A program made the position numbers and the translations under genes. The notes beneath the pieces were generated by a model that did no database searches, was not told where the DNA came from, and worked only from the letters and a program-made list of their open reading frames with translations. A stretch of DNA of 64,000 nt. Origin: Cellvibrionales bacterium (GTDB lineage: Bacteria; Pseudomonadota; Gammaproteobacteria; Pseudomonadales; JAHEIH01). Positions within the stretch are counted from its first letter, which is position 1. Each line of letters starts with the position of its first letter. Positions 15,863-47,426 of this stretch are shown here, piece by piece. The DNA lies in NCBI GenBank assembly GCA_024639455.1, contig JAHEIH010000005.1:186001-250000 (forward strand), in the 5' to 3' direction.

Positions 15863-18800
15863 ATGCAACTCAAGCAACTGCTGCCCGTGCTACCGACCAA
15901 TAGTCAACGCCAACGCTGGACCGAGCTACGCGGTAGCGGCTTGGGACTCTCTGTGGCCTTGGCGATGGCCGAGACACAAGCGCCCATGTTAGTCGTCTGT
16001 CGAGATGGTAACAGCGCGCAACAGCTGGAGCACGACATCCGTTTTTACAGCGGCGACCCCGAATCGGTCGTGCACTTCCCGGATTGGGAAACCCTGCCCT
16101 ACGACAGCTTTTCACCCCACCAGGACATCATTTCCGAACGCTTAAGGATCCTCCATCGCCTCACCCGCCAGGAACGCCTGGTGCTGGTGACCACGGTTAC
16201 CAGCCTGTTGCAACGCATCGCTCCCAGTAGCTATTTAGCGGCGCACAGCACGCTGCTCGAAAGCGGCCAGCGGTTCGCCATTGAAAACGAGCGCATCCAG
16301 TGGGAAGCGGCCGGCTATCGCTGCGTTGACACCGTTTACGAACACGGGGAATTTGCCGTGCGAGGCTCGGTGGTCGATTTGTTCCCCATGGGTAGCTCGG
16401 TACCCTTCCGCCTGGAACTTTTCGACGACGAATTAGAGAGCTTGCGCAGCTTCGACCCCGAAACCCAGCGCACCTTAGAAAAAGTCGATCGGATTGAAAT
16501 TCTACCGGCCCGTGAGTTCCCCCTCGATGCCGAGGGCATCAAACGCTTTCGCAACCAATGGCACGAATTGTTCGATGTGGACCACCGCAAGTGCCCGACT
16601 TATCGCGACGTCAGCGACGGCATGGCGCCTGCGGGGATTGAATACTACCTGCCGCTATTTTTTGAACACACCGACAGCCTACTGGACTATCTGCCAGAAG
16701 ACAGCCTACTGTTCGCCGATGCTGCACTCGAGCCCACCGTGCAGCAGTACTGGCAAGACATCGCCAACCGCTTCGACGAACTCGGCATTGACCCCACACG
16801 ACCACTACTGCCGCCGAAGCACCTATTCATGGCCAACGAAGAACTGTTTGGTCGCTTCAAGAGCCTGTCGCGTGTGGTCTACAGCGGGAACGCAGCCGAC
16901 AAAAGTCAGTTTGTTTTCCCCGCCAGCCCAATGGCTGACCTAAGCATCGATGCGCGCGCGGAAGACCCACTGGCCGAGCTAAAGCGCCACCTGCAAAACA
17001 GCAAATTGCGCATTCTTATTTGTGCCGAGACTACCGGTCGCAGAGAATCACTTCTGGAGCTCTTTGGCAAAGGCGATATTCGCCCGAAACAGGTCGCCGA
17101 CTGGGCGGAGTTTACCGCTAGCGATGCAGCAATAGCCATCACAGTCGCCCCCCTTGCTGAGGGCTTGTGCCTGCCCACACAGGGCATTGAAGTCATCGCC
17201 GAGCCACAACTCTTTGGCCAACGTGTCATGCAGCGGCGACGCCGCAAACGCAGTAGCGACAACACCGAATTGGCGGTCAAAAGCTTAGCCGAACTCGCGC
17301 CGGGTAAGGCTGTGGTCCACGCTGATCACGGCATTGGTCGTTACTTGGGACTGGAAAGCATCCCGATCGACGGCCAAGCCAGCGAATTCCTTGCCCTGCA
17401 GTACGCCAACGGCGCCAAACTGTATGTTCCGGTCACCTCACTCGATCTTATCAGCCTTTACTCCGGGGGAGACGATGCCGCCGCACCACTGCACAAACTG
17501 GGCACCGAACAGTGGAGCAAGGCGCGCCGCAAGGCCGCGGAGAAAGCCCGTGATGCCGCCGCCGAACTGCTCGACATATACTCGCGCCGCGCTGCACGCG
17601 AAGGTGTATCGTGCGCTTTCAGCGACTTAAACTACCAACAGTTTGCCGCTGGGTTCCCGTTTGAGGAAACGCCTGACCAAACCGAAGCTATCGAAAACGT
17701 TATCCGCGATATGCGTGCCGCGACGCCAATGGATCGGCTAGTGTGTGGCGATGTCGGCTTTGGCAAAACCGAAGTGGCGATGCGCGCCGCCTTTATCGCC
17801 GTAGACGCCGGCCGCCAGGTGGCCTTGCTAGTGCCCACCACCCTGCTCGCCCAGCAACATTACGAGACCTTCCGGGACCGATTTTCTGAGTGGCCGGTAA
17901 CGGTAGAAGTGGTCTCACGCTTTAAGAGCGACAAAGACATAGCAGATATCATTGACCGCTTGGAACAAGGCAAGGTCGACATTTTGGTCGGCACCCATAA
18001 ATTGCTGCAGTCGAGCATCAAATTCAAAGATCTCGGTCTGTTGGTCATCGACGAGGAACATCGCTTTGGTGTGCGTCAAAAGGAGGCCATCAAAGCCCTG
18101 CGCGCCGAGGTGGACATCCTCACCCTGACGGCCACCCCGATTCCACGCACCCTGAACATGGCCATGTCGGGCATGCGAGACTTATCGATCATCGCCACCC
18201 CACCGGCGAGACGCCTGTCGGTGAAGACCTTCGTCAGCGAGAAGAAAAAGCCACTTATCAAAGAGGCCATTTGGCGCGAACTCCTGCGTGGTGGGCAGGT
18301 CTACTACCTGCATAACGAGGTAAAGACCATCCAAAATGCCGCACGCGATCTACAAGAATTGTTGCCAGAGGCCCACATCGGCATCGGGCACGGCCAAATG
18401 CGCGAACGCGACCTAGAACAGGTGATGAGCGATTTTTATCATAAGAAATACAATATTCTGCTGTGCACCACGATTATTGAGACCGGCATTGATGTCCCCA
18501 ACGCCAACACCATCATCATTGAGCGGGCCGACAAGTTTGGCCTAGCACAATTGCACCAGCTGCGCGGCCGCGTAGGACGCTCTCACCACCAAGCCTATGC
18601 CTATCTGCTGACGCCTGAAACCAAGGCCATGACTGACGAAGCCCACAAGCGCCTTGAAGCTATTGCCGCCGCCGACACATTGGGCGCGGGCTTCACCCTG
18701 GCAAGCCACGACCTTGAGATTCGCGGCGCCGGCGAACTGCTCGGCGATGAACAGTCTGGTCAAATACAAACCGTCGGTCTCAGTATGTACATGGACATGC

Positions 18801-19300
18801 TAGATCGCGCCGTGAAAGCCCTCAAGAAAGGCAAGAAAGTCGACCTTGAAACCACCTTGCAAAATGGCCCTGAAATCAACCTGCGCACCCCTGCCTTGAT
18901 ACCGGACGACTACCTACCCGATGTCAACGCGCGCCTTGGTCTGTACAAGCGCATTTCAGCCGCCAAGGACAGCGAACAATTGCGCGAATTGCAGGTAGAA
19001 ATGATCGATCGCTTTGGTTTACTGCCCCCGCCTACCAAAGCGCTGTTCTCGATGAGCGAAGTGAAACTGCTGGCTGAACATATCGGTGTGATGAAGCTCG
19101 ATGTCGGTGCTGGCGGTGGCGGCCTAGAGTTCGCTCCTGACACGTCGATAGAACCCATGACCATTGTAAAATTGCTGCAATCGAAGGCTGGGGCCTTCCG
19201 CATGAATGGCGCCAGTGGACTTAAATTCCAGTTGCCATTGCCTGAGGCTCAAGATCGGCTAGAATTCGCCATGGGTTTACTAAAAGAACTGGGCGCCTAG
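15863..19300 (+). CDS. mfd: Transcription-repair coupling factor Mfd
   Basis: ATP-driven DNA translocase that removes RNA polymerase stalled at lesions and recruits UvrA. The 1145 residues show the UvrB-like N-terminal region (HFPDWETLPYD near 72-82), the polymerase-interacting domain (LAPGKAVVHADHGIGRYLGL near 475-495), and the SF2 translocase domain with Walker A GDVGFGKTEV near 628, DEEH and TATPIPRTL, then the RGRVGRS motif VI and a C-terminal regulatory domain. Length matches the family. csiV follows after 3 bases. A weak promoter with TTGACA (15792-15797) and TACAGT (15817-15822) has a 19-base spacer. Confidence 0.97.
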   Translation: MQLKQLLPVLPTNSQRQRWTELRGSGLGLSVALAMAETQAPMLVVCRDGNSAQQLEHDIRFYSGDPESVVHFPDWETLPYDSFSPHQDIISERLRILHRLTRQERLVLVTTVTSLLQRIAPSSYLAAHSTLLESGQRFAIENERIQWEAAGYRCVDTVYEHGEFAVRGSVVDLFPMGSSVPFRLELFDDELESLRSFDPETQRTLEKVDRIEILPAREFPLDAEGIKRFRNQWHELFDVDHRKCPTYRDVSDGMAPAGIEYYLPLFFEHTDSLLDYLPEDSLLFADAALEPTVQQYWQDIANRFDELGIDPTRPLLPPKHLFMANEELFGRFKSLSRVVYSGNAADKSQFVFPASPMADLSIDARAEDPLAELKRHLQNSKLRILICAETTGRRESLLELFGKGDIRPKQVADWAEFTASDAAIAITVAPLAEGLCLPTQGIEVIAEPQLFGQRVMQRRRRKRSSDNTELAVKSLAELAPGKAVVHADHGIGRYLGLESIPIDGQASEFLALQYANGAKLYVPVTSLDLISLYSGGDDAAAPLHKLGTEQWSKARRKAAEKARDAAAELLDIYSRRAAREGVSCAFSDLNYQQFAAGFPFEETPDQTEAIENVIRDMRAATPMDRLVCGDVGFGKTEVAMRAAFIAVDAGRQVALLVPTTLLAQQHYETFRDRFSEWPVTVEVVSRFKSDKDIADIIDRLEQGKVDILVGTHKLLQSSIKFKDLGLLVIDEEHRFGVRQKEAIKALRAEVDILTLTATPIPRTLNMAMSGMRDLSIIATPPARRLSVKTFVSEKKKPLIKEAIWRELLRGGQVYYLHNEVKTIQNAARDLQELLPEAHIGIGHGQMRERDLEQVMSDFYHKKYNILLCTTIIETGIDVPNANTIIIERADKFGLAQLHQLRGRVGRSHHQAYAYLLTPETKAMTDEAHKRLEAIAAADTLGAGFTLASHDLEIRGAGELLGDEQSGQIQTVGLSMYMDMLDRAVKALKKGKKVDLETTLQNGPEINLRTPALIPDDYLPDVNARLGLYKRISAAKDSEQLRELQVEMIDRFGLLPPPTKALFSMSEVKLLAEHIGVMKLDVGAGGGGLEFAPDTSIEPMTIVKLLQSKAGAFRMNGASGLKFQLPLPEAQDRLEFAMGLLKELGA

Positions 19301-21254: not shown

Positions 21255-21396
21255 GGTCTTTTCGCTTCCTGCGTAGAGGTTTAATGGCTAATAAGAATGC
21301 CTCCTTTGAAAACAGATCACAAGTGCGAATATTGCTCGACTATAGCGACAGCTGCACTATAAATAAAAGATGCATATCCAGTTGAAGAGGTGGCTT

Positions 21397-21708
21397 ATGA
21401 GCAGGCTAAAACCCGTCGTAGGGCAGTGGTACCGAGGTGCTGAACAGGGCGTGGTATTTGAAATTGTAGCCATAGATAGCGGCTACATTGAAGTTCAACA
21501 CGAGGATGGTGATATCGAAGAATACGACCTCGACGCTTGGCGAGAACTTGTCTTGCAGCAAGTGGATGCACCCGAGGACTGGCGTAATAGCCTCGGCTTA
21601 TCCGAAGAAGATCGCATAATGGATGACGATGTGGTGCGACCAGACAACTGGTCGGGGTCCCTCGAGGGCATTGAACCAGATGTTGAAATCGACCTGGACG
21701 ACGACTAG
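21397..21708 (+). CDS. DUF6763-like small acidic protein
   Basis: About 103 residues. The first half (KPVVGQWYRGAEQGVVFEIV then DGDIEEYDLDAWREL) looks like a small beta-barrel fold; the second half is strongly acidic and ends in a run of Asp. It resembles small gammaproteobacterial proteins filed as DUF6763, for which no function is known to me. I start at the ATG at 21397, preceded by GAAGAGG; an in-frame ATG at 21370 lacks such a site. It stands alone just upstream of lexA on the same strand, but lexA has its own promoter. Confidence 0.65.
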   Translation: MSRLKPVVGQWYRGAEQGVVFEIVAIDSGYIEVQHEDGDIEEYDLDAWRELVLQQVDAPEDWRNSLGLSEEDRIMDDDVVRPDNWSGSLEGIEPDVEIDLDDD

Positions 21709-36682: not shown

Positions 36683-38548
36683 TTATTGGATCACAACGTC
36701 AGCGTTGGCTCGCAAACTGGCCTGGAATGCATTCATTTCTGCACCTGCAGCCGCTTGTTGCAACATGCCGCGAAGGCCTTGACGCTCAGCATCACTCAAC
36801 GCGTCAATACTACCTGGAACGACATTGCTAACAGCGATTACAGCCAGACCTTGGTACCCCATAGACACACTGTCGTAGGCTTCGCCATCCACGCTAAGGC
36901 CAAAAGCGGCAGGAACAATACGTGGGGCTCGATTATCGCGGCGGTTAATATTCTCCAACGCAGTCACTTCAAGGCCTACCGCAGTTGCGAGTGCCGTCAT
37001 GTCGCCACCGGCACGCAACGCGTCTACCATATCGTTGGCCGACGCCTGCAGAGCATCACGGGCAGATTGGTTGCGCAACTGCTGGCTAATTTCTTGCGCC
37101 ACCTGCTCCAAGGGGCGCTGCTCGGGTGGCAGGTGTTGTGCCACACGAAGAACGACCGACTGATCAGCACTCAATTCGATCACTTCACTATTGAGTCCTT
37201 GTTCGATAAGTTCAGCTGAGAATGCTGCTTTTAAGACTTTAGCATCTGCAAAAATACCACTACCGCCACTGCGAGGAACCACGCTGCTCATTTGTAGAGG
37301 CAAAGATAATTCCTCGGCGGTATCCTGGAGACCCACAGAGTTGAAACTCATATCGGCTAACTGCTCAAGAGCAGCAATATAAAGAGGCTCCGCCTTGACC
37401 GCTGTCAACTGAGTCACGATGTCGTCACGACGCTCAGCGAGGCTTGGCTTTTCCTGCTCTTCAAGGCGAATCAGCTTGATCAAGTGCACAGCACCTTCAG
37501 TGACCACGGGCGCAGAAACTTGATCCAATTGCAGCGCTGCCAAGGCGTCTTCGAATGCTTCAGGGAACACGTCACCAGTGGTATCACCGATATCGCCGCC
37601 CTGCTCAGCTGAAAAACTATCCTCTGAATATTGCGCGGCCAATGTAGCAAAATCGCCACCAGCATCTAACTCAGATTTAATACCGTTGAGGATTTCAATC
37701 GCCTCAGATTCGCTGCGATCGCCTAATTCCAACATAATATGCGCAGCACCACGGCTAACAGAGGCTTGCATGTTGTCTATTTCACGCTGGTATTCTGCGG
37801 CAATGTCTTCTTCCGAGATATCGACATTGAAATCGGCACGATTAAGTAAAACATATTCCAGCTCAACGCTTTCCTCAGTCATAAAGCGTGCCGCATTGTC
37901 GGCGTAGTAGCTTTGAATTTGCTCTTCGCTCACTACGGTATTTTCCAACACAGGCGCCAAGGGCAAGGTCACGTAATGTACGGTGCGAGTCTCACCGACA
38001 AAACGCGCAGCCAGCGCAAGCTCTTCTGGGCTTATAAAACTTGAATTAGTAATACCATCGACCAATTGACGTAGTTCAAGATCGCCGCGCAACAATTGCT
38101 TGTAACCCAGAGGAGTCAAACCATTTGACGTTAATACACTGCGGTACATATCGGGCGAGAATACACCGTCAATTTGGAAGGTTTCAGTATTAACAATATC
38201 TCGGTCGAGAATATCATCACCAACAGCCAGACCGAAATCGGCGGCTGTTTGGCGCAGAATTTCTTGTTGTACCAATTGCTCCAGCACCGGACCACGGATC
38301 ATGTCATCATTTATGGTGGTTGGGTCGGCATTTTCACCCATTTGGCTCAACATACGGCTGCGTTGCGCCGACATGGCTCGCGCCAACTCTTGCACAGCGA
38401 TACCTTCGCCGTTGACCTTGGCAGCATTGTCCGCACCAGAGGAGAAAACTAAAGATTCGATACCAAACAAAGCAAAGGGTATAACGATAATACCGACAAT
38501 AACTTTGGCAGCGGTGCCTTGCATGCTGTCTCTAAAAAACTGTAGCAC
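36683..38548 (-). CDS. ppiD: Periplasmic folding chaperone PpiD (SurA-N and parvulin-like domains)
   Basis: 621 residues anchored by one N-terminal helix (about 12-34) with a large periplasmic part: SurA-type N-terminal helices, one parvulin-like domain (about 265-355, with AHIMLELGDRSESEAIEIL at its start), and a C-terminal region. PpiD sits at the Sec translocon and helps newly exported proteins. The gene order hupB-ppiD matches E. coli and Pseudomonas. hupB upstream has its own terminator, so a separate promoter is expected in the 106-base gap. Confidence 0.93.
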   Translation of the reverse strand: MLQFFRDSMQGTAAKVIVGIIVIPFALFGIESLVFSSGADNAAKVNGEGIAVQELARAMSAQRSRMLSQMGENADPTTINDDMIRGPVLEQLVQQEILRQTAADFGLAVGDDILDRDIVNTETFQIDGVFSPDMYRSVLTSNGLTPLGYKQLLRGDLELRQLVDGITNSSFISPEELALAARFVGETRTVHYVTLPLAPVLENTVVSEEQIQSYYADNAARFMTEESVELEYVLLNRADFNVDISEEDIAAEYQREIDNMQASVSRGAAHIMLELGDRSESEAIEILNGIKSELDAGGDFATLAAQYSEDSFSAEQGGDIGDTTGDVFPEAFEDALAALQLDQVSAPVVTEGAVHLIKLIRLEEQEKPSLAERRDDIVTQLTAVKAEPLYIAALEQLADMSFNSVGLQDTAEELSLPLQMSSVVPRSGGSGIFADAKVLKAAFSAELIEQGLNSEVIELSADQSVVLRVAQHLPPEQRPLEQVAQEISQQLRNQSARDALQASANDMVDALRAGGDMTALATAVGLEVTALENINRRDNRAPRIVPAAFGLSVDGEAYDSVSMGYQGLAVIAVSNVVPGSIDALSDAERQGLRGMLQQAAAGAEMNAFQASLRANADVVIQ

Positions 38549-45263: not shown

Positions 45264-46307
45264 TTATGAGGTTAGGCATGCCGGGTCGAAGGTATAGCCA
45301 CCCTGCAGCCAATCCAACCACTCTGCAGCCGGCGCATTTTTGAAGGTCTCAAGACCTTGGCGCATGCTATGCAACTGCTGGTCAGACATGCCATCTAGGC
45401 CCAAATTCTGCACAAGATGGGTATTCTCCCACCAAAAATCGGCAAAGGCAGCCCCCCATCGATACTCTGCAAAACGGAAGCTTTCATGTGGCGCCTTGTT
45501 TGAGCCAACTACAGCAAGATAGGCTGAAGCAATGACAGGCAGCGACAACTCGAATTGATTCATAGGATTGATGAAGTAACTTCGATAACTCGTGGCGGTC
45601 AGCTGTCGATCTTGCAGTGGCCGCAGATGCAAATAGCGACTCGTGAGGCGTCCATCGTTGACCGGGTAGTTATCCCAAATGGCTGGTTGACGCTTTAACA
45701 CCCGCATCGCCTCAACCGCATCGCTTAAGTCAAGACGGTGGCTACAAACCTGACTGCCCGTCCAAAAACATTGCACCTCCAAGGGCAAATTAAGCGACAG
45801 TTTCGACCAGTAGTCATCGGGACGCTCGCCAAAAACCTCTTCCAAAATCGGATCTGAACTGTAATACGTAGGGCAAAACAAAATCTTTTCGGCATTACTG
45901 TGCTGACGTATCCAAGCCAGTGCCGTCAACTGTCTATCTGCCAAACCTGGATCATCCCCCCGCATGTCGTCGAAAAACACACCGAGATGCCCCAGTTGTA
46001 ATTGATTGAGCCGTTCTAATTTTTCTGCCAGCAACGTCGCGTCCTTATCGCTGTAGTCGAGCACCGACAATCCAACCCCAAAAGACACATTATTGGCGCG
46101 TGCCGCCTTGGAAAGAGTGCGCAGTTGGTACCAGTCACTATCTGGCCAGTGCTCGCGCCATCGCCGCCGCAAAAAAGCGTCGCCTTTTGGGGCATACAAA
46201 TAGGCATTACATTGAAAGACAGGGAGTAAATCGAGTAATTCGCGGCGCTGCTGCCAACGCCACTGACGGCCGTAAAAACCCTCAATTACGCCAAAAAGCG
46301 GTGACAT
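45264..46307 (-). CDS. GH84 family glycosidase (O-GlcNAcase-like), no signal peptide
   Basis: 347 residues. GH84 enzymes remove beta-linked N-acetylglucosamine by substrate-assisted catalysis. Signature elements in order: GVIEGFYGRQW (6-16), YAPKGD (38-43), the catalytic aspartate pair Asp113-Asp114 in FFDDM, CPTYY, FWTGSQVCS, and WDNYPVND with the substrate-binding Asn. The protein is little more than the catalytic domain and lacks any signal peptide, whereas most bacterial GH84 enzymes known to me are exported, so it should be cytoplasmic. Its ATG overlaps the miaE stop (TAATG), making it the third gene of DUF1289-miaE-GH84. Substrate unknown: recycled muropeptide sugars, or a glycosylated protein or RNA, are possibilities only. 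Confidence 0.82.
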   Translation of the reverse strand: MSPLFGVIEGFYGRQWRWQQRRELLDLLPVFQCNAYLYAPKGDAFLRRRWREHWPDSDWYQLRTLSKAARANNVSFGVGLSVLDYSDKDATLLAEKLERLNQLQLGHLGVFFDDMRGDDPGLADRQLTALAWIRQHSNAEKILFCPTYYSSDPILEEVFGERPDDYWSKLSLNLPLEVQCFWTGSQVCSHRLDLSDAVEAMRVLKRQPAIWDNYPVNDGRLTSRYLHLRPLQDRQLTATSYRSYFINPMNQFELSLPVIASAYLAVVGSNKAPHESFRFAEYRWGAAFADFWWENTHLVQNLGLDGMSDQQLHSMRQGLETFKNAPAAEWLDWLQGGYTFDPACLTS

Positions 46308-46975
46308 TACGCCGCCTCGACAGGGGTGCCACTGTGGAATCGAAACTCAGCGTCCTCGCTGAGCACTAATGACGCCTCAACCTGACGAAAATACTCGACC
46401 CTAGCCTCGATATTGGTTCCTGCAAACGTCTCCGCCAGGGCGAGATAGTCGCTAAAATGGCGTGACTCGGATTTCAGCAGGGAGATATAAAAATCGGCCA
46501 CCAAAGGCGGCAAATGGGGAGCAAGCTTGGCAAAGCGCTCGCAAGAGCGAGCTTCGATGAAGGCACCAATGATGAGCTTGTCGACCAAGGCTTGTGGATC
46601 GTGCTTTTCTGCTGCGGCAATCATGCCTGTGGCGTAGCGAGACGCCGGCACCGCCAGGTATGGCAGGCTCAGTTTCTTCATGATTTTTAGCACTTGTTCG
46701 AAATGGCGCAACTCTTCTCGCGCCAAGCGAGATAACTTGTGCAGCATTGAGGCCTGACTGCCCGAGGTATCTACCGCACTGTGAGTGCGCGGGGTGCCGT
46801 AGCGCCACATGAGCGCCTGCGCCGTTTGCGCGGCCTTCATTTCACAGTTGGCATGATCGGCCAACAACGCGGGCAACTGATCCTCGCGCGCAGCGAAAGC
46901 TATCCAGGCGTCAGGGGTTTCACATGCCAAAAAAGCGTGTACTGGTTGCAGGTATTCGGCAACAGTTTTAGCCAT
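46307..46975 (-). CDS. miaE: tRNA-(ms2io6A)-hydroxylase MiaE
   Basis: About 222 residues. Diiron monooxygenase that hydroxylates the isopentenyl group of ms2i6A at tRNA position 37. Ferritin-like helices carry the metal ligands: Glu in NCEMKAA, ExxH in REELRHFEQ, Glu in EARSCERF, and ExxH in SESRHF. I use the ATG at 46975, which lies within the last codons of the DUF1289 gene (8-base overlap) and has GAAGAG upstream; a TTG two codons earlier is possible. Tightly coupled to both neighbours. Confidence 0.92.
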   Translation of the reverse strand: MAKTVAEYLQPVHAFLACETPDAWIAFAAREDQLPALLADHANCEMKAAQTAQALMWRYGTPRTHSAVDTSGSQASMLHKLSRLAREELRHFEQVLKIMKKLSLPYLAVPASRYATGMIAAAEKHDPQALVDKLIIGAFIEARSCERFAKLAPHLPPLVADFYISLLKSESRHFSDYLALAETFAGTNIEARVEYFRQVEASLVLSEDAEFRFHSGTPVEAA

Positions 46976-47426
46976 TATCAATACTCTTCAAGGGTTCGGC
47001 AACGTAGCGCTGAAAATGGGCATCGGACAAGGTGTAAAAGTCTTGATCGATCTCTTCTACGTGTTTGGTCAGCGGAATACCAACGTAGGCCGAACGCACT
47101 CGAAAACCGTAGTTCTCGGGGATGACTTGGCTAGCGCCAGCACGCAGCAATTCAAAAATCCAGCAGTAGGCATTACGGTATTCATGGAAGCGGATATTCT
47201 GCGCTTTCAATCCGGCCAGCAATAGGGCTTCATCTACAATTTCTAAGCGCGCCTTAACCAATTGAGACAACAAATAGCTCAGGCGCGCATCAATGGCCTG
47301 CTTTTGCTCTTCGCTATAACCCACCCAATCGATAACTTCGTGACTAAAGCGCTTACAGCCACGACATACATCGCCGCCAAACACGGTGGAACAAACGCCA
47401 ATGCAAGGTGTGCGGACTTGGGTCAT
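46968..47426 (-). CDS. DUF1289 domain-containing protein (long form)
   Basis: 152 residues. The N-terminal DUF1289 domain has the Cys pattern PCIGVC then CRGCKR (about residues 8-24), suggesting a zinc or iron-sulfur site, followed by DWVGYSEEQKQAI. The C-terminal 90 residues form an extra domain of unknown role, longer than the usual 60-80-residue family members. It is the first gene of the trio with miaE and a GH84 enzyme. Function unknown. Confidence 0.82.
   Translation of the reverse strand: MTQVRTPCIGVCSTVFGGDVCRGCKRFSHEVIDWVGYSEEQKQAIDARLSYLLSQLVKARLEIVDEALLLAGLKAQNIRFHEYRNAYCWIFELLRAGASQVIPENYGFRVRSAYVGIPLTKHVEEIDQDFYTLSDAHFQRYVAEPLKSIDNG

Follow-up and report, generated by a model that had tools for sequence, protein, structure and literature searches.

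Which substrate would a leaderless glucosaminidase serve when its gene overlaps that of a tRNA-modifying enzyme? The question is raised by the window, a stretch of 64,000 nucleotides (contig JAHEIH010000005.1, positions 186,001 to 250,000) from a Cellvibrionales bacterium, in which a gene of glycoside hydrolase family 84 (GH84), the family of the O-GlcNAcases, closes a run of three overlapping genes behind miaE and a DUF1289 gene. An earlier note, made from the sequence alone, had offered a link to tRNA, the removal of N-acetylglucosamine (GlcNAc) from a cytoplasmic protein, or the recycling of amino sugars. The last of these is supported by our analysis and can be narrowed to the NagZ step of peptidoglycan recycling, on the grounds that GH84 and NagZ nearly exclude each other, that AmpG and AnmK are kept, and that the window retains a nagZ neighbourhood without nagZ. 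From these sequence comparisons we propose, with a probability of about 0.74, that the GH84 protein acts in the cytoplasm as a muropeptide N-acetylglucosaminidase and has taken the place of NagZ in the window's lineage.

45264..46307, minus strand: GH84 (O-GlcNAcase-family) beta-N-acetylglucosaminidase, 347 amino acids, PF07555; proposed NagZ replacement

The protein matches the Pfam family PF07555 (NAGidase) over residues 6-261 (186 bits, cut-off 25, E 1.3e-54), and its only other match at E ≤ 0.1 is the GH84 model NF041654 (105 bits, cut-off 1000); the NagZ and GH3 models (Pfam, NF003740) gave no match at that threshold. It is a possible stand-in for NagZ and, as judged from its family matches, not itself a NagZ. 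The catalytic residues described in the earlier note, Asp113-Asp114 and the motif WDNYPVND, are intact, and G10, K41, D113, D114, Y149, N213, D218 and N247 are invariant in all 49 sequences of an alignment comprising the window's protein and 48 picked out of 92 matches. By alignment, these are the counterparts of G67, K98, D174, D175, Y219, N280, D285 and N313 of human O-GlcNAcase (OGA), which we take to be its GlcNAc-site residues. A further conserved stretch, 150-166, holds L155, G160, P163 and Y166, again identical in 49/49.

An AlphaFold2 model (mean predicted local distance difference test score, pLDDT, 90.8), built from the window's sequence and 29 others taken from named public contigs, consists of the catalytic barrel and a short helical end. 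Comparison with human OGA, which speaks to the fold and says nothing on function, gave a VIA Z of 34.7 over 322 residues (root-mean-square deviation 2.6), with residues 2-336 aligned, bearing out the earlier remark that there is almost no accessory sequence. The top Foldseek match is Thermobaculum terrenum OGA (E 2.1e-23), and an alternative model from 49 sequences agrees (pLDDT 95.8, Z 35.3 to human OGA). Inspection of the sequence revealed no signal peptide, the start leading directly into the barrel (MSPLFGVIEGFYG), which would place the enzyme in the cytoplasm. GH84 relatives have a possible start shortly 5' of the barrel, their start sites being uncertain because several frames stay open further upstream.

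AmpG is the importer of muropeptides, and AnmK is the kinase for the anhydro-N-acetylmuramic acid (anhydro-MurNAc) normally released by NagZ. In the pathway that we propose, AmpG would import GlcNAc-(1,6-anhydro)MurNAc(-peptides), GH84 would remove their GlcNAc in the cytoplasm, and AnmK and the downstream steps would reuse the remainder. GH84 catalysis is substrate-assisted, by an aspartate pair, and that of GH3 NagZ is covalent; Asp113/Asp114 would thus work by the former mechanism in place of the latter. The change would amount to a non-orthologous displacement, with an order of gain and loss that we infer, in which GH84 makes up for the nagZ missing, in the window's lineage, from the lexA-topA neighbourhood where it is usually located. 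Extracts of PMC3920638 describe NagZ as stripping GlcNAc off anhydro-muropeptides in the cytosol, and those of PMC5371407 give a Pseudomonas scheme of AmpG, NagZ, AmpD, LdcA and AnmK, with processing "conserved within Gram-negative bacteria", and list amgK and murU for Cellvibrio japonicus, Aeromonas salmonicida and Marinobacter aquaeolei. Members of these three genera carry GH84 in our data.

NagZ was searched with the model NF003740 (curated cut-off 207 bits). Among 95 genomes of the window's order, 31 carry GH84 and 49 carry NagZ over the cut-off, while none has both and 15 have neither (hypergeometric 5e-14). A larger sample, overlapping with the first and made up of 292 order genomes with a completeness of 95% or more, gave 73 with GH84, 171 with NagZ at E ≤ 1e-30 (160 over the cut-off) and 50 with neither. 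The two genes coincide in 2 of the 292, against 42.75 expected, and 71 genomes carry GH84 without a NagZ match at E ≤ 1e-30. Counted by genus (118), GH84 occurs in 29 and NagZ in 73, with 2 in common against 17.9 expected, and four families (f8, f15, f40 and f44) each include GH84-only and NagZ-only genomes. The share of sampled order genomes in which GH84 appears to have taken over lies between about one quarter and one third. Of 80 named loci, 40 were run for NagZ, some of their species possibly being in the order samples as well; NagZ passed the cut-off in 0 of the 23 GH84-carrying gammaproteobacteria among them (Marinobacter, Cellvibrio, Gilvimarinus, Aeromonas and others). One Aeromonas caviae record (4.94 Mb) matches the window's protein over 99% of the query, and its absence from the matches listed (40 of 338) for E. 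coli NagZ is weak evidence in the same direction. A class-wide survey found GH84 in 3 of 140 genomes, the window's own included, too few for an exclusion test.

The importer and the kinase are retained alongside GH84. AmpG is matched in all 31 GH84-carrying order genomes, in 29 of them over the cut-off, and AnmK is kept in 30, the exception being G086. The window's own genome (99.5% complete) has AmpG at 400 bits and AnmK at 433 bits, these being the two recycling genes tested there, and its best NF003740 match reaches 65 bits, in an 804-residue frame. Four order genomes (G006, G026, G048 and G083) have no AmpG or AnmK match and also neither GH84 nor NagZ over the cut-off.

The window also contains the place where nagZ would be expected, about 24 kb from GH84:

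15863-19300, plus strand: mfd, on the other side of the nagZ neighbourhood; NF007966, 1473 bits
19304-20185, plus strand: csiV, likewise on the other side; PF10972, 187 bits
20163..21254, minus strand: mscS-like gene flanking the site; PF00924, PF21082, PF21088
21255..21369, no strand: nagZ-less site, where NagZ-positive relatives have the gene and the window has 115 bases separating the mscS-like gene from the DUF6763 gene; by synteny, tblastn and sequence
21370..21708, plus strand: DUF6763 gene, with the site on one side and lexA on the other; PF20549, 102 bits
21810..22415, plus strand: lexA, flanking the site; TIGR00498, 246 bits
25134..27857, minus strand: topA, a further marker of the nagZ neighbourhood; TIGR01051, 835 bits

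We fetched 16 nagZ stretches, from 15 NagZ-positive genomes and from G422. In 10 of the 16, nagZ is immediately adjacent to a homologue of the mscS-like gene of the window, and lexA is close by; among the other six, nagZ itself was missed by the picking of open reading frames (ORFs) in two (L270, L275); a DUF6763 homologue lies near nagZ in L267 and L272. The window retains mfd, csiV, the mscS-like gene, DUF6763, lexA and topA, and three NagZ proteins found no match in it by tblastn (best E 0.17). An ElsL-like gene and psrA, sought by tblastn in the window only, likewise gave no match (best E 0.40 and 0.32). In G422, a 160-residue YkuD protein adjoins nagZ and scores 174.6 bits against the ElsL model, below its cut-off of 270; extracts of PMC9239154 describe the Acinetobacter ElsL as a cytoplasmic recycling carboxypeptidase.

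On a tree of clpP, clpX and lon from 87 order genomes, 6 changes are counted for GH84 and 9 for NagZ. A model in which gain and loss of the two genes depend on each other is preferred to an independent one (likelihood ratio 18.5, p 0.001; with G042 and G078 scored as NagZ-positive, 20.3, p 0.0004), in a fit that ran into the bound of a rate and gives single clades too much credit. The opposition between the two genes is seen on the tree in families f19 and f10 too. In the tree of GH84 itself, the two enzymes from Marinobacter cluster with those of Alphaproteobacteria, Elusimicrobia and Bdellovibrionales (SH-aLRT 97). The position of the Cellvibrionaceae sequences near Thiotrichaceae has weaker support (84), and the pattern is consistent with several acquisitions. 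NagZ has probably been displaced by GH84 several times. A plasmid origin was considered and rejected: 87 records match the GH84 protein, 67 of them from Enterococcus and all below 60% identity.

A number of observations weigh against displacement. Most GH84 genomes belong to a single large clade, which inflates the simple p-values, and the test on independent pairs (0 in the same direction, about 3.3 opposite; sign test p 0.125-0.5) is not significant because the pairs are too few. In f40, NagZ is matched weakly, at E 1e-59 to 1e-63 and close to the cut-off, and Aeromonas sobria, among the 23 above, reaches 192 bits, just below 207, with a NagZ-like match in a 629-residue frame. G422 carries both genes, GH84 by dapE and nth (L277) and NagZ at the lexA-topA site (L278), possibly as an intermediate state, and G280 combines NagZ with a 45-bit GH84 fragment. 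The exclusion does not hold beyond Gammaproteobacteria: of 17 named genomes with GH84 that are non-gamma or unassigned, 8 have NagZ over the cut-off, and the displacement reading therefore applies to Gammaproteobacteria. The glucosaminidase survey comprised GH84 and NagZ. Ten of the 95 order genomes match AmpG and AnmK and have neither GH84 nor NagZ by the cut-offs, two of them holding a NagZ-like protein of 196-198 bits, so the GlcNAc-removal step can be filled by something else or be lacking; in these genomes another enzyme may fill it, or one may have been missed. Homologues of AmpG, AmpD, LdcA, NagZ and AnmK were not found in the gammaproteobacterial GH84 stretches. Searches of all GH84 stretches and of the window with these five queries and with LptD and LpoB found only a Bdellovibrionales AmpG-like gene, in a genome that also has NagZ over the cut-off.

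Some side observations may be added. AmpG and AnmK are matched, with neither GH84 nor NagZ over the cut-off, in G009, G011, G027, G039, G055, G058, G071 and G075, the AmpG match of G058 being a 46-position fragment. The AmpG-family gene on the Bdellovibrionales contig (L120, 4614-7053) overlaps the GH84 gene on the same strand and scores 199 bits, below the cut-off of 350; the overlap speaks for the recycling role of GH84, although this genome also has NagZ. A SurA query matches one ORF of the window, 36683-38548.

The genes around GH84 bear on the remaining answers. In the window, the neighbours are:

46968..47426, minus strand: DUF1289 protein, 152 amino acids; PF06945, 56 bits
46307..46975, minus strand: miaE, tRNA hydroxylase, 222 amino acids from the ATG at 46975; PF06175, 253 bits
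45055-45139: tRNA-Leu gene, beyond GH84, as is tig

The overlap of the three minus-strand genes was confirmed as first described: the miaE stop and the GH84 ATG have one base in common (TAATG), and the miaE ATG overlaps the DUF1289 stop by 8 bases (ATGGCTAA), a figure valid for the ATG start, the ORF listing giving an in-frame TTG at 46981. Against NCBIfam NF047790, miaE scores 279.8 bits, below the cut-off of 320. Stretches around GH84 were fetched for 30 GH84-carrying order genomes besides the window, which represents its own genome in the counts. The trigger-factor gene tig, near GH84 in the window, occurs in the stretch of 20 of those 30. In L051, GH84 lies in a housekeeping region among fabF, pabC, tmk, holB, tatD, gcvT, fadB and fadA. 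An MltG query matches 33 GH84 stretches, in L051 within a fabF-pabC-mltG-tmk-holB-tatD region; in E. coli K-12, this cluster ends about 6.5 kb upstream of nagZ, a parallel that may be coincidence. A gcvT-like gene lies directly upstream of GH84 in L051 (6529-8720, between tatD and fadBA), L148 and L174.

Cooperation of GH84 with MiaE and DUF1289 on tRNA or sugar-modified RNA would account for the three overlapping genes, which recur in the same order, with miaE abutting GH84, in a second genome of the window's genus (L050), the only fetched stretch with miaE. Beyond that genus the arrangement dissolves: GH84 adjoins miaE in 2 of the 31 GH84-carrying genomes, both of this genus; none of the 30 loci with the best-scoring miaE matches has GH84 within about 1.5 kb; and miaE is present in 87 of 95 order genomes against 31 for GH84. 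DUF1289 is a near neighbour of miaE, at 1.5 kb or less, in 11 of these 30 loci, and because this pair recurs while GH84 does not, GH84 beside miaE is a local arrangement. The three-gene order proposed for survey in the earlier note is not kept beyond close relatives, an outcome that the note itself had named as refuting the link to tRNA. That link becomes the least credible of the readings, and miaE probably stands beside GH84 by chance, with co-expression at most. In G086, a GH84-carrying genome, DUF1289, miaE and ampG form a tandem with 3-base gaps (L080, 202-2619; AmpG 473 bits), giving a second genus in which the gene after miaE belongs to recycling; miaE and ampG are, by coordinates, convergent neighbours in G012 and G053. 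Both observations are suggestive only. The other suggestion of the earlier note, removal of O-GlcNAc from cytoplasmic proteins, has the closest solved structures on its side, which are O-GlcNAcases, and a precedent in Thermobaculum terrenum, for which extracts of PMC4683255 describe an intracellular GH84 with O-GlcNAcase activity together with an O-GlcNAc transferase (OGT). Such a system was rejected here, and the reading is highly improbable: the window's genome has no GT41/OGT match (PF13844), only 2 of the 31 GH84-carrying genomes and 8 of all 95 have one, and an O-GlcNAcase would not be expected to exclude NagZ.

A general cytoplasmic salvage of amino sugars, in which GlcNAc is trimmed from imported chito-oligosaccharides or small GlcNAc glycosides with no special cell-wall role, draws on the family's known action on many GlcNAc glycosides and on the presence of GH84 in several genera known for degrading polysaccharides, such as Cellvibrio, Gilvimarinus and Marinimicrobium. 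We consider it unlikely; chitin salvage explains neither the absence of NagZ alongside GH84 nor the retention of AmpG and AnmK, and the presence of tig in 20 of the 30 other stretches and the housekeeping setting in L051 also speak against it. The exclusion could likewise be an accident of lineage, GH84 having expanded in a clade from which NagZ was lost by chance, with the two functions unrelated. The dominance of one large clade and the non-significant sign test speak for such an accident, and yet the opposition recurs in f8, f15, f40, f44, f19 and f10 as well as among the tested genomes of Aeromonas and Thiotrichales (A. sobria being borderline), the dependent gain/loss model is preferred, and AnmK is retained, which makes an accident very unlikely. 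Displacement of NagZ by GH84 is the reading that we retain.

If it is true, the pathway predicted for Marinobacter, Cellvibrio, Aeromonas and their relatives has to be revised, since the 71 of 292 order genomes with GH84 and without NagZ contrast with the conservation across Gram-negative bacteria stated in the extracts of PMC5371407. NagZ-selective inhibitors would miss the step there, O-GlcNAcase inhibitors might reach GH84, and a large family (at least 587 confirmed stretches) would gain a concrete role. A proposal that GH84 replaces NagZ was not found in the PMC literature searched, preprints and most subscription papers lying outside its reach. A bolder idea, speculative and rather improbable, is that short leaderless GH84 enzymes form a separate, widespread class of cytoplasmic muropeptide glucosaminidases that displaced NagZ repeatedly, that the stretch 150-166 reads the anhydro-MurNAc side, and that the animal protein O-GlcNAcases descend from a cell-wall salvage enzyme.

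Among known systems, the window's GH84 would share with NagZ the substrate, the compartment and the position in the pathway, and hardly any of the sampled order genomes carries both; NagZ belongs to another glycosidase family, GH3, to which the window's protein has no match, and by family knowledge uses another mechanism. Human OGA and the OGAs of Oceanicola granulosus (OgOGA) and Thermobaculum terrenum (TtOGA) have the same fold, active site and both catalytic aspartates. OgOGA and TtOGA are about 100 residues longer, the stretch 150-166 has a 9-residue gap in TtOGA and is shorter and different in sequence in human OGA and OgOGA, and O-GlcNAcase systems differ further in their OGT, unmatched in the window's genome. 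Clostridium perfringens NagJ and Bacteroides BT_4395, which we take to be exported, multi-domain enzymes, have the catalytic barrel in common with the window's protein, on chains of 590-740 residues against its 347.

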